Positions 18,291-24,522 of a stretch of 64,000 nucleotides of DNA are shown piece by piece (within the stretch, counting starts at the first letter, position 1; every line of letters begins with the position of its first letter). Made by a program: the position numbers and the translations under genes. This stretch comes from Paracoccus shandongensis. GTDB lineage: Bacteria; Pseudomonadota; Alphaproteobacteria; Rhodobacterales; Rhodobacteraceae. Location of the stretch: NCBI RefSeq assembly GCF_017315735.1, contig NZ_JAFLRK010000001.1:186001-250000 (forward strand), written 5' to 3'. The notes under the pieces are model-generated. The model worked only from the letters and a program-made list of their open reading frames with translations. It did no database searches and was not told the origin of the DNA.

Positions 18291-20093
18291 ATGACCCTGC
18301 ACGCCACCATCGACCGCGTCACCGACCGGATCCGCGCCCGGTCCCGGCCCACGCGCGATGCCTATCTGGCCAAGATCGCCCGCGCGGCCGCCGAAGGCCC
18401 GCGCCGCGCCCACCTGTCCTGCGGCAACCAGGCCCATGCCTATGCCGCGATGCCCGACAAGGACGACTTGGCGCTGACGTGCAAGCCCAACATCGGCATC
18501 GTGACCGCCTATAACGACATGCTGTCGGCCCATCAGCCCTATGAACGTTTCCCCGACCTGATCCGGGCGGCGGGCCATGCGGCGGGCGCCACGGTCCAGG
18601 TCGCGGGCGGCGTTCCCGCCATGTGCGACGGCGTGACCCAGGGCCGCGCAGGGATGGAGCTGTCGCTGTTTTCCCGCGACGTGATCGCATTGGCGGCGGG
18701 CGTGGCGCTGTCGCACGACTGCTTCGACGCGGCGGTCTATCTGGGCGTCTGCGACAAGATCGTGCCGGGCCTAGTCATGGCCGCCGCGACCTTCGGCCAT
18801 GTCCCGGCGGTGTTCCTGCCTGCCGGTCCCATGCCCTCGGGCCTGCCCAATGACGAGAAATCCCGCATCCGCCAGCAATTCGCGGCAGGCGAGGTCGGAC
18901 GCGACGCGCTGATGGCGGCCGAGATGGCGTCCTATCATTCCCCCGGCACCTGCACCTTCTACGGCACCGCCAACAGCAACCAGATGCTGATGGAGTTCAT
19001 GGGCCTGCACCTGCCCGGGTCCAGCTTCGTGAACCCCAACACCCCCCTGCGCGACGCCCTGACCGTGGCCGGCGTCCAGCGCGCCGCCGCGATCACGCGG
19101 CTTGGCAACGACTACCTGCCCGCGGGCGAGGTTCTGGACGAAAAGGCCTTCGTGAATGGCATCGTCGGCCTGATGGCGACGGGCGGGTCCACGAACCTGG
19201 TGATGCACATCCCGGCCATGGCCAAGGCCGCGGGCATCCTCCTCGACATCCAGGACTTCCACGACATCTCGGAATCGGTGCCGCTGATGGCCCGCGTCTA
19301 TCCCAACGGCCTGGCCGACGTGAACCATTTCCACGCGGCGGGCGGCATCGGCTACATGATCGGCCAACTGCTGAAGGCCGGACTGCTGCACCCGGACGTG
19401 AAGACCATCAATGGCACCGGCCTTGACGGCTATACCGCCGAGCCCAAGCTGGACGGCGAGGCCATCCGGTGGGAGGAAGGATCCCGCGACACCCTGAACG
19501 ACAAGATCCTGCGCCCCGCGCACACCCCCTTCGCCAGGACCGGCGGGTTGAAGCAGCTTGGCGGCAACCTGGGCCGGGGCGTCATCAAGGTCAGCGCCGT
19601 CGCCCCCGAACGCCACGTGATCGAGGCCCCCGCCCGTGTCTTTTCCGACCAGGACCAGGTCAAGGACGCCTTCAAGGCGGGCGAGTTCACGAAAGACACC
19701 GTGGTCGTCGTCCGCTTCCAGGGCCCGCGCGCCAACGGGATGCCCGAGCTTCACTCGCTGACCCCGATCCTGGCCGTCCTGCAGGACCGAGGCCTGAAGG
19801 TCGCCCTTCTGACCGACGGCCGCATGTCCGGCGCCTCGGGCAAGGTTCCCGCCGCCATCCACATCTCGCCCGAGGCATCCGTCGGCGGCCCCCTCGCCCG
19901 CGTCCGCGACGGCGACCTGATCCGCCTGGACGCCTCTTCCGGCACCATCGACTGCCTCGCCCCGGATTTTGATTCCCGCCCTGCTGCGGCGCACGATCCC
20001 GCCCCCAGCAGCGAAGGCATGGGCCGCGAGCTGTTCGCCGCCTTCCGCGCGGTCGCCGGCCCTGCGACCGAAGGCGCGGGCGTGGTGGTGTAA
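18291..20093 (+). CDS. edd: 6-phosphogluconate dehydratase
   Basis: Edd dehydrates 6-phosphogluconate to KDPG, the first enzyme unique to the Entner-Doudoroff pathway; it needs an Fe-S cluster. The 600-residue protein is IlvD/Edd family: '[20 protein letters not shown]', '[12 protein letters not shown]', '[16 protein letters not shown]' and '[18 protein letters not shown]'. The cluster-ligand cysteines are in those motifs. The ATG at 18291 follows AGGAG; a longer frame upstream is antisense to the methyltransferase gene. The usual partner eda does not follow: tRNA-Ser is the next gene. Confidence 0.97.
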
Positions 20094-20136
20094 GGGATCT
20101 TGGCAATCGCCCTGCCAGGGGTTACGCAGCCCCGAC

Positions 20137-20226
20137 GGAGCAGTGGCCGAGCGGTCTAAGGCAGCGGTCTTGAAAACCGCCGGGCCAGCAATGGTCCCGT
20201 GGGTTCGAATCCCACCTGCTCCGCCA
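20137..20226 (+). tRNA. tRNA-Ser(UGA)
   Basis: A 90-nt cloverleaf: acceptor GGAGCAG / CTGCTCC, discriminator G and an encoded CCA end. The anticodon stem GCGGT/ACCGC holds loop CTTGAAA with anticodon TGA (reads UCA). It has a long variable arm and T-arm 'GTGGGTTCGAATCCCAC'. A long variable arm is diagnostic of tRNA-Ser. The decayed accessory segment begins directly after it, as expected if the 3' end once served as an integration site. Confidence 0.97.
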
Positions 20227-20306
20227 CTTGCCTGCGCGAAAGCGTTCTCCCGATCAGGCTGCGGCCAGATTTTTCCGTTGTTTCGTGGGTTATGCGGGAG
20301 GGGCTG

Positions 20307-20735
20307 TTAACAAGCTCCCGCTTCGGAAGGCGCATACGTGTTCTCTCCGGACTCAAATTCTCCGGACCTGTTAACCAGACCCATTCCAGTTATACGGGTT
20401 AAGTGTCTGTCTCGGCTTAATTTATCCCTGGATGGCGCTTCACTTTTGCAATGATAAACGCCTGCCGCTCGTCGCATAGATCGAAAAAGATAATGGCTCA
20501 GACCAAGTAGTCCGACGCATGCGCCTCCTTCATACAGCGCCTTGATGGATGTTGCAGCCAAGACTGCTGCACGCGTTGCCGCTTCCTTCAGGTCGAGGAT
20601 CCGAAATATATCGGCGATCTTCGCGACAGCATATATCCGTAGATACTGGACGCCGAAGCGTTCTACATACTGGGCAAGGCCCTTCAACTTAGGAATGGCG
20701 TCACCGAACTGGTTGCCGTAAAATACGAAAAGGTG
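20307..20735 (-). pseudogene. unrecognised gene fragment of lower GC content
   Basis: An open frame on the minus strand encodes about 140 residues that look like real protein: 'FYGNQFGDAIPKLKGLAQY', 'RIYAVAKIADIFRILDLKEA', 'AATRAAVLAATSIKALYEG'. The base composition is visibly more AT-rich than the rest of the window. There is no start codon with a ribosome-binding site: upstream the frame runs antisense into the cas3 fragment, so this appears to be the C-terminal part of a larger gene cut at about 20735. I do not recognise the family. The last ~40 residues read less like conserved protein and may follow an older frameshift. Confidence 0.45.
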
Positions 20736-20737
20736 GG

Positions 20738-20910
20738 GAGAGGTGTTTCCGCAACCTGCCCGGCGCGACCACCATGACAACACGGCACCGCCGGGCCGTG
20801 CTGGCCGAGGTGCGAGAGCGGCTGTCCGCAGGGCAGCCGGTCTGGCTGGTCAGCACCAGCCTGATCGAGGCGGGGGTGGATATCAGCTTTCCGCGGGTGT
20901 TCCGCGCGCC
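20738..20910 (+). pseudogene. cas3 helicase fragment (type I-C)
   Basis: The frame reads 'RCFRNLPGATTMTTRHRR', then 'AVLAEVRERLSAGQPVWL' and 'VSTSLIEAGVDISFPRVFRA'. This matches the second RecA-like domain of Cas3 helicases, where an H-R-x-x-V-L-x-E-[IV]-R stretch precedes helicase motif V '(V)STSL(I/V)EAGVD(I/V)xFPxV'. About 57 of the ~750 or more residues of a full Cas3 remain. On the left the match stops near 20738, where the unrelated low-GC fragment begins. On the right it runs directly into a Cas5-like C-terminus, so the cas3 3' end and the cas5 5' part are deleted. Confidence 0.7.
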
Positions 20911-21026
20911 TGGATGCTTTACGACATAGCCCAGGCAAGGGGCCACGAGGCTCGGTTCTTTTGCGCTAGGCTGGGGACGGCATCATCGACGTGGCCCGCT
21001 CCCGGTCCGAACGGCTGGCGCAATGA
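20911..21026 (+). pseudogene. cas5 (type I-C) C-terminal fragment
   Basis: The frame gives 'WMLYDIAQARGHEARFFCAR', continuing after a one-base shift near 20973 as 'DGIIDVARSRSERLAQ' and a stop. Cas5 of subtype I-C typically ends with a 'GWMLYDIDF...FFRARxxDGxIDV' segment, so this looks like its last ~38 residues. Restoring one base in the G-run at 20973-20976 rejoins the two halves. The TGA stop overlaps the cas8c ATG (ATGA, 21023-21026), preserving the cas5-cas8c order of type I-C operons. Confidence 0.6.
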
Positions 21027-21480
21027 CGATCCTGTCGGCTTTGAACAGCCTTGACGACCGGATCGCCCAGGCGGGCGAGGCGCCGCGCCGTGGCTATTCC
21101 TCGGAACGGATCGGCCCGAAGTGGTGATCGACCGCAACGGCAACCTTGTGGCGATCAATTCCAAGCTGGTCGCGGACGGCAGCAGTCGCGCCCCGGATGG
21201 GCGCGTGGATACCGATCACGACCGCGCGCTGACGGTTGCCCGGCTATCCTGCCAGCCACAAGACTCCAGGCCTTTCGCAAACACGCCCTTGTCATGCACA
21301 AAAAACCTGCGCCGACCCCGCGCTTGTCCCAACCGCAATGCTGCCATGCAGCATCGGCGGTTGCGGCCGGCAGTCGGAAGGACGACCTTGGGCGACAGGG
21401 AGGAAACGGCTTTGTCCTTGGCAAGGAGTTTCCGCAGGGTGATCATCGCTTCCGCTCATCACAGGCTGGCCGGGTTTTCG
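21023..21480 (+). pseudogene. cas8c (csd1) fragment with frameshifts
   Basis: The start reads 'MTILSALNSLDDRIAQAGEA' then 'PRRGYSSERIGPK', close to the conserved Cas8c/Csd1 N-terminus (MTILxALNxYYDRLxxxGExPxxGFSxExI). A stop appears at 21125, but a shift of one base restores 'VVIDRNGNLVAINSKLVADG'. Near 21390-21420 a further single-base shift gives a TAFVLGK-like segment resembling the LWDKTAYVLG motif of Csd1; this second match is weak. Similarity then fades, so the right-hand limit is approximate. Full Cas8c is about 550-600 residues. No cas7, cas4, cas1, cas2 or repeat array follows. Confidence 0.6.
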
Positions 21481-21684
21481 GCTGCCTTGCCGCTGTCTCG
21501 ACCTTGCGCAGCAGGCTGCCTTATGACGATGCCGGATGCCTCCCGGGCACGGACCCGGATCCGAAGGCGGACCGCGACCTGCTGTCCAAGCGCCTGCCCC
21601 GGCAAGCCCCTTGACCGTCCCGCAGGAACCGTTTGCGCCGCGCGCCACCCTGGACCCTGCCCTAAATCCAGAAAGAACCTGACC

Positions 21685-22032
21685 ATGAAAACCATTCTTT
21701 TGACCGCTGCCGCCGCCCTTGCCCTTGCGGCGCCCGCTTCTGCCGAAGTCGTTGCGCTTTCGGCGCCGCTCCAGGCGGGAAGCCTTCATACCGGCGCGCT
21801 GGACATGGTGGCCTATCGCACGGATCTGCCCGACGGGGCGCATGAAGTCACCGCCATGTTCCGCGGCCGCGGCAACCAGAAGCCGCAGCGTGTCGTGATG
21901 CGCCTGGATGGCGGGGACGAGGTGCGGTTCTCGATGCCGGGCAAGCCGCAGACGCTTTATACCTTCGCGGACAAGGGCGATGTGGTCGAGATTTCGGCCC
22001 AGGGCGCAGCGGTGCAACTGGCCACGCGCTAA
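21685..22032 (+). CDS. small secreted protein, unknown function
   Basis: A 115-residue protein with a clear Sec signal peptide: 'MKTILLTAAAALALAAPASA', cleavage predicted after ASA at residue 20. The mature ~95 residues are soluble and beta-rich ('GAHEVTAMFRGRG', 'RVVMRLDGGDEVRFSMPG', 'TLYTFADKGDVVEISAQG'), with no cysteines. I do not recognise a family. It has normal GC and codon use, so it is probably the first regular chromosomal gene after the decayed segment. Ribosome-binding signal is weak. It is convergent with glpR. Confidence 0.7.
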   Translation: MKTILLTAAAALALAAPASAEVVALSAPLQAGSLHTGALDMVAYRTDLPDGAHEVTAMFRGRGNQKPQRVVMRLDGGDEVRFSMPGKPQTLYTFADKGDVVEISAQGAAVQLATR

Positions 22033-22085
22033 GGCCCGGGCTTCCTTCCAGGTGCTGACCCCCAGGGGTCGGCGCCAAAGGCGGT

Positions 22086-22850
22086 TCAACTGCCGGGGGA
22101 CGCCACCACCACGCGCGTTCCCCCTTCGGCGCAGACCCTGCGCAACCCTTCCGGCACCGGTCGGTCGATGAAGACCGCGTCCAGTTCGGCCAGCGACACC
22201 ACCCGGATCGGGGCCTTCTGCGCCAGCTTGGCCGAATCCGTCACCAGCCAGCGTTCGCGCGCCTGCCGCAGGATCGCGCGACTGACCCGCACCTCGGCCA
22301 GGTCGAAGTCCAGGATGTCGCCGTCCTCGTCCAGGGCGGAACAGCCGATGATGGCATAGTCGGTCTTGAAGTTGGCCATGAACTCGCTGGTCAGATCCCC
22401 TACCAGCCCGCCGTCGGATCGGCGCAGCAGGCCGCCCGCCACCAGAACCTCGCAACTGTCGTTGGCGGCCAGGATGTTGGCCACGTTCATGTTGTTCGTC
22501 ACGACCGTCAGGTTGCGGTGGCGCAGCAGGGCGCGGGCCACGGCCTCGGTCGTGGTGCCAATGTTCAGGATGACCGAGCTGTTGTCGGGGATCTCGGCGG
22601 CGCAGGCGCGGCCGATGGCGGCCTTGGCGTCCTCGTTCATGCGCCGGCGTTCCTCATAGGCGATGTTGCTGGCGCCGCTGCGCAGGATCGCGCCGCCATG
22701 GACGCGGTCCAGCACGCCCTGGTCGGCCAGCTCCGCCAGGTCGCGTCGGATCGTCTGGGGCGTGACCTCAAGCCGCGCCGACAGTTCCTCGACGCTGGCC
22801 CGGCCCGAGGCGCGCACGACTTCCAGGATCTGCATCTGCCTGATGTTCAT
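22086..22850 (-). CDS. glpR: DeoR-family repressor of glycerol genes
   Basis: The 254-residue protein has an N-terminal DeoR winged helix ('RASVEELSARLEVTPQTIRR', about residues 18-37) and the C-terminal sugar-phosphate sensor domain with 'ILNIGTTTEAVARAL', 'VVTNNMNVANIL' and 'FDLAEVRVSRAIL'. GlpR binds glycerol-3-phosphate and releases its operators. It is divergent from glpD, with repeated TTCG/CGAA half-sites in the 121-bp gap. I chose the ATG at 22850 (MNIRQMQIL), the usual DeoR beginning, although neither candidate start has a strong ribosome-binding site. Confidence 0.9.
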   Translation of the reverse strand: MNIRQMQILEVVRASGRASVEELSARLEVTPQTIRRDLAELADQGVLDRVHGGAILRSGASNIAYEERRRMNEDAKAAIGRACAAEIPDNSSVILNIGTTTEAVARALLRHRNLTVVTNNMNVANILAANDSCEVLVAGGLLRRSDGGLVGDLTSEFMANFKTDYAIIGCSALDEDGDILDFDLAEVRVSRAILRQARERWLVTDSAKLAQKAPIRVVSLAELDAVFIDRPVPEGLRRVCAEGGTRVVVASPGS

Positions 22851-22878
22851 ATGTCCAGAAGACCGCGCAAGGATCATC

Positions 22879-22944
22879 TGTCAAGCGAAACAAAATGCGC
22901 AGGAACGAACATCCATGTTGACAGAATCTGCGCGCGGATGTTCG
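22879..22944. promoter_or_regulatory. glpR-glpD divergent control region
   Basis: Two TTGACA -35 hexamers face away from each other: plus strand 22918-22923 toward glpD, and minus strand 22879-22884 toward glpR. An inverted repeat CGAACATCC (22906-22914) / GGATGTTCG (22936-22944) brackets the glpD -35. Its ATGTTCG / CGAACAT cores resemble the E. coli GlpR half-site. A third related word, TGTTTCGCTT (minus strand), lies at about 22883-22892. -10 elements are not clear. Confidence 0.5.
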
Positions 22945-22971
22945 ACTTCCCTGCAAGGGAGTGAGGCTGCC

Positions 22972-24522
22972 ATGTCGCAAGCGACGGATCTGTTCGTCAT
23001 CGGCGGTGGGATCAACGGCACGGGCATCGCCCGGGACGCCGCCGGGCGGGGCCTTTCCGTGCGGCTGGCGGAACAGGGCGACCTGGCCGGGGCGACCAGC
23101 AGCGCATCCACCAAGCTGTTCCACGGCGGGCTGCGATACCTGGAGTTCCTGGAACTGCGCCTGGTGCGGGAATCGCTGCGCGAACGCGAGGTGCTGCTGC
23201 GGGCGATGCCGCATATCGCCTGGCCGATGCGCTTTGTCCTGCCGCTGGACCCGCAGATGCGCTTTGCCGGGGGGACGCCGGTGTCGCGGCTGCTGTCGGT
23301 CGCGATGCCCTGGGCGCGCGGCCACCGTCCCGATCTGGTGATCCGCGCGGGGCTGTTCCTGTACGACCATCTGGGCGCGCGGGAAATCCTGCCGGGCACC
23401 TCCTCGCTGGATTTGCGCCATGCGCCCGAGGGCGTGCCGTTGCAGGACCGGCTGGTGCGGGCCTTTGAATATTCCGATGCCTGGGTGGACGACGCGCGGC
23501 TGGTGGTGCTGAACGCGCGGGACGCGGCGGCGCGCGGGGCCGACATCATCGTCGGCGCCCGCGTGACCGAGGCCCGGCGCGAGGGAGAGGGCTGGACGAT
23601 CCGTCTGGCCGACGGGCGCAGCTTCCGCGCGCGCGTCCTGGTGAATGCGGCGGGGCCGTGGGTGGGACAGGTGATCCGCGACGTGGCGCATCTTCCGTCC
23701 ACCGAAGGGGTGCGGCTGGTGCGCGGCAGCCATATCGTGACACGCAAGCTGTTCGATCATCCGAAATCCTATTTCCTGCAAGGCCAGGACGGGCGGATCG
23801 TCTTTGCCATTCCCTATGAAGGCGACTTCACCCTGATCGGCACGACCGACGTGGACCATGACGGCCCGCCCGGGGCCGCCATCTGCACGCCCGGGGAAGT
23901 CGATTACCTGTGCCGCTTCGTATCAGACTATTTCAGGACGCCCGTGACGCCCGCCGACGTGGTCTGGACCTATTCGGGGGTCAGGCCGCTTTACGACGAC
24001 GGCTCGTCCTCGGCCACGGCGGCGACGCGGGATTACGTGCTGTCGCTGGACGCGGACGGCCCGCCCTGCCTGCACGTCTTCGGCGGCAAGATCACCACCT
24101 ACCGCCGCCTGGCCGAGGCCGCGCTGGCAAAGCTGGCCCCGCATCTGCCCCATGCGGGCGCGGCCTGGACGGCGGGCGCCCCCCTGCCCGGCGGCGACTT
24201 TCCCGTGGACGGGGCGGGGGCGCTGGCGGATGCGCTGATGCGCGACCATCCCTTCCTGACCCCCGGCTGGGCCAACCGGCTGATCCGCGCCTATGGGACC
24301 GAGGCCGCGCAGGTGCTGGACGGCGCCCGGACCGCCGCCGACCTGGGCCGCGACTTCGGCGCGACGTTGACCGAAGCCGAAGTCCGCTGGATGATCGGGC
24401 GCGAATGGGCGCAGGACGCCGAAAGCGTGCTGTGGCGCCGCTCCAAGCTGGGCCTGCGGCTGACGCCCGAACAGGCCGCGGCGGTCGAGGATTACATCGC
24501 AAGCGAAAGGGTCGCCGCATGA
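22972..24522 (+). CDS. glpD: glycerol-3-phosphate dehydrogenase, FAD-dependent
   Basis: GlpD is the membrane-associated flavoenzyme that oxidises glycerol-3-phosphate to DHAP and passes electrons to quinone. The 516-residue protein has the dinucleotide fold 'FVIGGGINGTGIARDAAGRG', 'SSASTKLFHGGLRYLE', 'VLVNAAGPWV', 'GTTDVDHDG' and a C-terminal DAO_C domain with 'GKITTYRRLAE'. The start at 22972 follows a GGGAG site. The stop overlaps glpS by 4 nt, so dehydrogenase and transporter are one operon, as in Rhizobium leguminosarum. Confidence 0.96.
   Translation: MSQATDLFVIGGGINGTGIARDAAGRGLSVRLAEQGDLAGATSSASTKLFHGGLRYLEFLELRLVRESLREREVLLRAMPHIAWPMRFVLPLDPQMRFAGGTPVSRLLSVAMPWARGHRPDLVIRAGLFLYDHLGAREILPGTSSLDLRHAPEGVPLQDRLVRAFEYSDAWVDDARLVVLNARDAAARGADIIVGARVTEARREGEGWTIRLADGRSFRARVLVNAAGPWVGQVIRDVAHLPSTEGVRLVRGSHIVTRKLFDHPKSYFLQGQDGRIVFAIPYEGDFTLIGTTDVDHDGPPGAAICTPGEVDYLCRFVSDYFRTPVTPADVVWTYSGVRPLYDDGSSSATAATRDYVLSLDADGPPCLHVFGGKITTYRRLAEAALAKLAPHLPHAGAAWTAGAPLPGGDFPVDGAGALADALMRDHPFLTPGWANRLIRAYGTEAAQVLDGARTAADLGRDFGATLTEAEVRWMIGREWAQDAESVLWRRSKLGLRLTPEQAAAVEDYIASERVAA

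Follow-up and report, generated by a model that had tools for sequence, protein, structure and literature searches.

Evidence for a decayed type I-C CRISPR-Cas operon beside a tRNA-Ser gene in Paracoccus shandongensis

The window, a 64 kb stretch of the P. shandongensis genome, carries a tRNA-Ser gene that is followed by the tail of a type III restriction (Res)-like gene on the reverse strand and by a dead CRISPR remnant of ~450 bases on the forward strand (Table 1). The remnant consists of scraps of three genes, cas3, cas5 and cas8c, and one array repeat. Profile matches, the repeat and the tRNA called by ARAGORN support the original prediction, made from the letters alone, of a decayed type I-C CRISPR-Cas operon next to tRNA-Ser. 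The repeat and the truncated Res gene that abuts the cas3 scrap go beyond that prediction, and its extent of 20738–21480 has to be narrowed, similarity to Cas proteins running from ~20765 to 21180.

Table 1. Features at the tRNA-Ser locus, in window coordinates.
Feature	Position	Strand	Remarks
tRNA-Ser (anticodon TGA), putative insertion site	20137–20226	+	ARAGORN; Rfam tRNA 59.6 bits
Region downstream of the tRNA, with putative island end	20227–20501		Division between island and flank putative; match to genome G042 stops at 20274
Type III restriction (Res)-like gene, C-terminal 87 codons, truncated	20502–20762	−	63% identity to the Res of locus L094
cas3 fragment, helicase motif region	20765–20908	+	Profile residues 495–542 of 756
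cas5 C-terminal fragment, two frames	20908–21026	+	Frame change at ~20968–20976; stop TGA 21024–21026
cas8c/Csd1 N-terminal fragment, ~53 codons	21023–21180	+	Frame change near 21120
Single type I-C CRISPR repeat	21185–21210	+	Bases 1–26 of 32 remain, with a degenerate 3' end
Stretch before the flank that G042 shares	21211–21319		Match to G042 resumes at 21320; possibly some weak similarity, judged by eye, already from ~21285

Profiles for Cas3, Cas5, Cas8c, Cas7, Cas4 and Cas1 were built from 25 intact I-C loci, the fragment in genome G121 being left out, and a nearest-clade set was built from up to 11 loci. These loci came from Csd1 matches within the genus and from a search of 394 genomes of the family with the Cas3 scrap; of the 18 further genomes in which this search had a match, ten were used. 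Not every locus gave every gene, and families comprised 20 to 26 sequences each. The first Cas8c profiles included bases upstream of the start codon; a trimmed profile was made from 105 loci, 46 of whose 95 N-termini could be trimmed to the start. The targets were the six-frame translation of the window and five control sets (one reversed and four triplet-shuffled windows), with all E-values taken at one fixed database size.

The original prediction had proposed profile searches as its check, and in these Cas3 and Cas8c stand far above the controls. In the six-frame translation of the window, the nearest-clade profiles gave E-values of 5.4e-22 for Cas3 (best control 0.54) and 1.1e-11 for Cas8c over 21023–21115 (best control 3.7). 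All-locus profiles gave 1.1e-21 (control 0.84) and 3.7e-8 (control 2.8), respectively, the start-codon-trimmed profile matched Cas8c from residue 1 (E 3.5e-7, control 0.44) and a wider profile set matched Cas3 at 3.3e-23 (control 0.56). Pfam and NCBIfam models, which are too insensitive for such short fragments, returned weak Cas3 and helicase matches for the cas3 piece, whereas the Cas5 and Cas8c pieces had none. The Cas3 scrap is 77% identical to its best relative in the family set and at best 72% identical among 80 of the 212 loci of a public species collection. When the same scrap was searched against plasmid proteins, 35 records matched; of the 20 that were listed, 19 carry a Cas3 or Cas3'' annotation at the matching position, and one has no listed gene there. 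A plasmid DNA search with 20400–21700 found nothing.

The cas5 scrap is represented by two short pieces. With the nearest-clade profile, residues 202–223 and 225–239 of 240 were matched at E 0.025 and 0.46 (best control 1.5). The corresponding values with the all-locus profile, 0.14 and 2.3, are no better than the best control (0.13), and the wider set matched the first piece only (E 0.12, control 1.4). Against locus L060 the identity of 52.6% amounts to 10 of 19 aligned residues (E 0.042). Since Cas5 is weak alone, its identification rests on three observations: the pieces are the window's two best Cas5 matches with both the nearest-clade and the all-locus profiles, they are adjacent in the profile, and they stand side by side in the right place, between Cas3 and Cas8c.

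The last part of the cas8c scrap, 21121–21180, is supported by a read-through alignment to the Cas8c of locus L082 that extends up to 'LVADG'. This part had no match of its own in the profile searches of the window. Translated similarity is weak from 21121 onwards (best E 0.049), with no match on any Cas8c of the 16 loci searched and three of the six listed matches inside CRISPR arrays. Reading 21181–21300 as further Cas8c was rejected, since the sequence there holds the CRISPR repeat.

The stop of cas5 and the start of cas8c overlap as ATGA at 21023–21026, and the order of a I-C operon is kept. The three plus-strand pieces had been predicted in this order and are borne out by the locus-derived profiles, and the ATGA overlap and the frame changes expected near 20973 and 21120 are all in the sequence. 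An internal deletion had been proposed to fuse cas3 to cas5; the two genes do abut, at 20908, and a deletion would be the presumed cause. Intact open frames for Cas3, Cas5 or Cas8c were not found at the locus, truncations and the two frame changes interrupting them; the latter point to an end of selection on the Cas proteins.

The repeat at 21185–21210 reads GTCGCGCCCCGGATGGGCGCGTGGAT and matches the pattern GTCGCGCCCCNNNNGGGCGCGTGGAT without mismatch at its 22 fixed positions. When up to three mismatches were allowed, shuffled windows contained 0.01 sites on average (one in 100 shuffles). With the variable stem pair left open, the same site was again the only one in the window, against 0.05 expected. 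Both patterns were written after the site had been seen; published I-C repeats were found afterwards and so provide independent support. The repeats of Pseudomonas aeruginosa ST235 (GTCGCGCCCCGCACGGGCGCGTGGATTGAAAC; PMC7761518) and Legionella pneumophila (GTCGCGCCCCGTGCGGGCGCGTGGATTGAAAC; PMC5071653) have the same 22 bases, agreeing with the site at all fixed positions within the first 26 bases. On 26 fixed positions the site is the window's best, at 21 of 26, the next reaching 17. The 32-base consensus of intact loci in the genus, GTCGCCCCCC-N4-GGGGGCGTGGATYGAAAC, has no match in the window within three mismatches, owing to one swapped stem pair and the loss of the repeat's 3' end. No second repeat stands out nearby: the best local site reaches 16 of 26, whereas the best background sites reach 17; the window thus holds one repeat and not an array of two or more. 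The prediction that no array remains was wrong in so far as this repeat persists. Because Cas8c similarity ends at ~21180, four bases before the repeat, cas8c was apparently joined almost directly to it, and there is no room for cas2 between them.

The rest of the window and of the genome was searched for further parts of the system. In the window, nothing matched the Cas7, Cas4 and Cas1 profiles better than the controls did, in line with the prediction that these genes are missing. In the genome as a whole, the Csd1 family search gave no match, and an orphan I-C array, which had been suggested as something to look for, was not found: no site lies within three mismatches of the standard I-C repeat pattern. 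The family search is blind to the remnant itself and the pattern to the degenerate repeat, and so further short scraps are possible. The genome's own Cas1 lies on contig 5, in a type I-E locus whose Cse1, Cas7 and Cas1e exceed NCBIfam cut-offs and whose Cas3 exceeds the cas3_core cut-off, with an array of 29 repeat copies. We compared 509 spacers with the window, 28 from this I-E array and the rest from eight I-C loci. Matches were short and partial, up to 24 bases at E 0.01, and none lay inside 20500–21300.

The truncated Res gene and the sequence behind the tRNA place the remnant in a wider context. The Res fragment matches residues 776–862 of the 862-residue Res of L094, a protein that itself matches PF04851 (ResIII) and has a neighbour matching PF01555 (DNA methylase). 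Two bases separate the end of the Res match (20762) from the first base of the Cas3 match (20765). This abutment, behind the 3' end of tRNA-Ser, indicates that the I-C operon was probably cargo of a defence island at the tRNA. A genome of the genus that has the window's flanks at 86–88% identity, G042, lacks 20275–21319 and has 164 other bases instead.

A first DNA search of the genus, with three candidates scored per genome, left 30 loci for comparison. The stretch at ~20211–20376 recurs behind a full or partial tRNA-Ser in 23 of them, the window's own included. Twelve of the 30 loci, among them the window's own and that of G042, have an intact tRNA-Ser call. In many of the remaining loci the last bases of the tRNA alone precede the shared end, and contig ends truncate some loci. 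The tRNA end has no second copy in the window, and the shared 13-base core is not repeated in 20001–23000. The far-side direct repeat and the recombinase of an integrated element were likewise not found at the locus, the remnant of 1.1 kb having no room for the latter; both are taken to have been deleted.

Several further observations concern these ends and flanks. The genus tRNA-Ser genes with anticodons TGA, GGA and CGA share an end sequence of ~140 bases. The loci with the shared end are L018, L020–L034, L036, L039, L041, L042, L045 and L046, and L044 is counted by Res similarity only. The partial tRNA ends suggest tandem insertions, and restriction or TcmP-type genes follow the shared end in several genomes, making it a likely site of defence islands. 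A probable tRNA terminator at 20240–20275 (CCGGCTGCGGCCGG plus a T run in most of the relatives shown, the window differing at two bases) also recurs behind tRNA-Ser copies and partial copies. On the other side of the remnant, 21320–21463 is a conserved stretch with a GC-rich inverted repeat, CCGCAATGCTGCCATGCAGCATCGGCGG, upstream of a gene at 21685; it occurs in several genus genomes at ~72–85% identity and has no Rfam match. Across 19900–22300, Rfam reported the tRNA alone at curated strength.

The cargo at the other loci is varied. Within ~1.5 kb on each side, Res is present in five of the 30 loci, the window's own included, and the first or both members of a gene pair known from L119 are present in nine. 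In L119 the second member of the pair scores above cut-off as TcmP; the first resembles radical SAM mobile pair protein A, at a score below cut-off. In the other 16 loci none of the six tested proteins is present, apart from a Mod match of 26% in L042. Six of these 16 (L019, L035, L037, L038, L040 and L043) entered the set through other parts of the query or have no more than the start of the shared end. Among longer regions with the shared end, L120 and L124 carry a resolvase-type recombinase in addition to type I restriction genes, as judged by eye on the translations, whereas L119 has type I restriction genes and an IS-like transposase, with no resolvase-type recombinase in the 14 kb read. 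The window's end sequence is also that of the islands of L093, L094, L119, L120 and L124, where it follows a complete or partial tRNA-Ser 3' end. A Res gene, moreover, ends next to the shared end in L093 and L094, as it does in the window, although L094 has long open Res and Mod frames and the window's Res is truncated. Unlike the window, these five stretches have no I-C genes that we could see.

The original prediction had suggested comparing the locus in related Paracoccus genomes in search of an intact operon. Intact I-C loci exist elsewhere in the genus; the remnant itself was seen in no other genus genome when four candidates were scored per genome. Csd1 family matches occur in 16 of 125 genus genomes (P. 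shandongensis being one of the 125), and 15 of them are full length. A second decayed-looking Csd1 lies in G121 (L016/L062), where a match of 54 residues (profile 156–209) has one in-frame stop and no array was detected in the 19 kb fetched. The closest Cas3 proteins are those of L060 (G045) and L082 (G444), with 71% and 77% identity to the scrap, and by eye L082 has the most similar Cas8c N terminus. Both loci have cas3, cas5, cas8c, cas7, cas4 and cas1, with 85 and at least 19 repeat copies, respectively; their cas5/cas8c overlap is GTGA, in contrast to ATGA in the window. Only one of the 25 I-C loci, L057 (G105), has a tRNA-Ser in the fetched stretch. There, a tRNA-Ser (CGA) at 1576–1665 is followed by a serine recombinase (PF00239 and PF07508) and then by a I-C operon whose array has about 50 repeat copies. 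Three other I-C loci have tRNA-Gln, tRNA-Pro or tRNA-Gly in the fetched stretch. L057 demonstrates that I-C can sit near tRNA-Ser in the genus; the sequence after its tRNA differs from the window's, and so it is no proof of the same element here.

Measured against complete type I-C systems, the remnant is a small residue. The systems of P. aeruginosa ST235 (PMC7761518) and L. pneumophila (PMC5071653) are arranged as cas3-cas5-cas8c-cas7-cas4-cas1-cas2 plus an array. The pieces that survive here are in the same order, and the repeat form GTCGCGCCCC-N4-GGGCGCGTGGAT of those systems is found in the remnant too. With parts of three genes and one partial repeat, unlike a complete locus, it is not functional. 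It has no immune function, as it cannot make an effector complex, acquire spacers or make crRNA.

The remnant is very probably what is left of a defence island that was once inserted at the 3' end of tRNA-Ser and has since collapsed. The cargo of such an island would have been a type III restriction-like gene on the reverse strand and a type I-C operon with its array on the forward strand. Deletions, one after another, would then have brought Res up against cas3 and cas3 against cas5, fused cas8c with an array repeat and left the array next to the old flank, while frameshifts would have disrupted what remained of cas5 and cas8c. Several internal deletions of one island fit the observed order of Res (reverse strand), cas3, cas5, cas8c, repeat and flank, in which each part is cut and joined to the next; the sequence in which the deletions occurred is part of the same proposal. 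Res and I-C may have arrived on one element, although no genome that we looked at has both together on one tRNA-Ser island and L057 differs after its tRNA. Selection to keep I-C may have been relaxed by the I-E locus that the genome has elsewhere.

The main rival is that a small I-C fragment was captured already broken, perhaps through recombination with foreign DNA, and never formed a working system in this lineage. A DNA search of the genus with 20730–21310 found some match at E 0.01 in 78 of 125 genomes, P. shandongensis included. With four candidates scored per genome, the listed matches outside its own genome reached at most ~108 of the 581 bases of the query, and several of the best fall on cas3 genes. 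This short coverage speaks for capture, as does the failure to find a Csd1 family match or a standard I-C repeat elsewhere in the genome. The native order from cas3 to array and the tail of Res nevertheless fit decay in place by several deletions better, and we consider capture unlikely and less economical than the decay of one island. It is very improbable that the repeat is retained in a small regulatory or crRNA-like RNA instead of being debris: its 22 fixed positions are free of mismatches although the adjacent coding pieces have changed frame, but its 3' end is lost, no neighbouring site rises to the background level and the Csd1 family search of the genome was empty. Finally, an origin in chance or in another helicase family, to which the weak Pfam and NCBIfam results with their general helicases might point for the Cas3 piece, is taken as refuted by the profile searches and the repeat match together, since no control for the Cas3 and Cas8c profiles fell below 0.44 and order, overlap and repeat are all those of a I-C system.

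The decayed type I-C operon is confirmed as real, and it is an ordinary case of decay in a well-known system; a tRNA-Ser defence island is its probable setting. Loss and decay of CRISPR-Cas loci are familiar, and the gain is therefore mainly one of annotation, together with a comparative question about the site. Among the titles and beginnings of abstracts listed by literature searches, none describes this locus. It is possible, though we offer it tentatively, that tRNA-Ser genes of the genus are a common landing site for recombinase-driven islands that share an end of ~140 bases, at which defence modules (type III restriction, type I restriction with the TcmP pair, type I-C) are swapped and then eroded, the window being an eroded end state. 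The locus documents that one CRISPR type was lost from a genome in which another, I-E, is retained, and it indicates tRNA-Ser as a site of defence islands in the genus.
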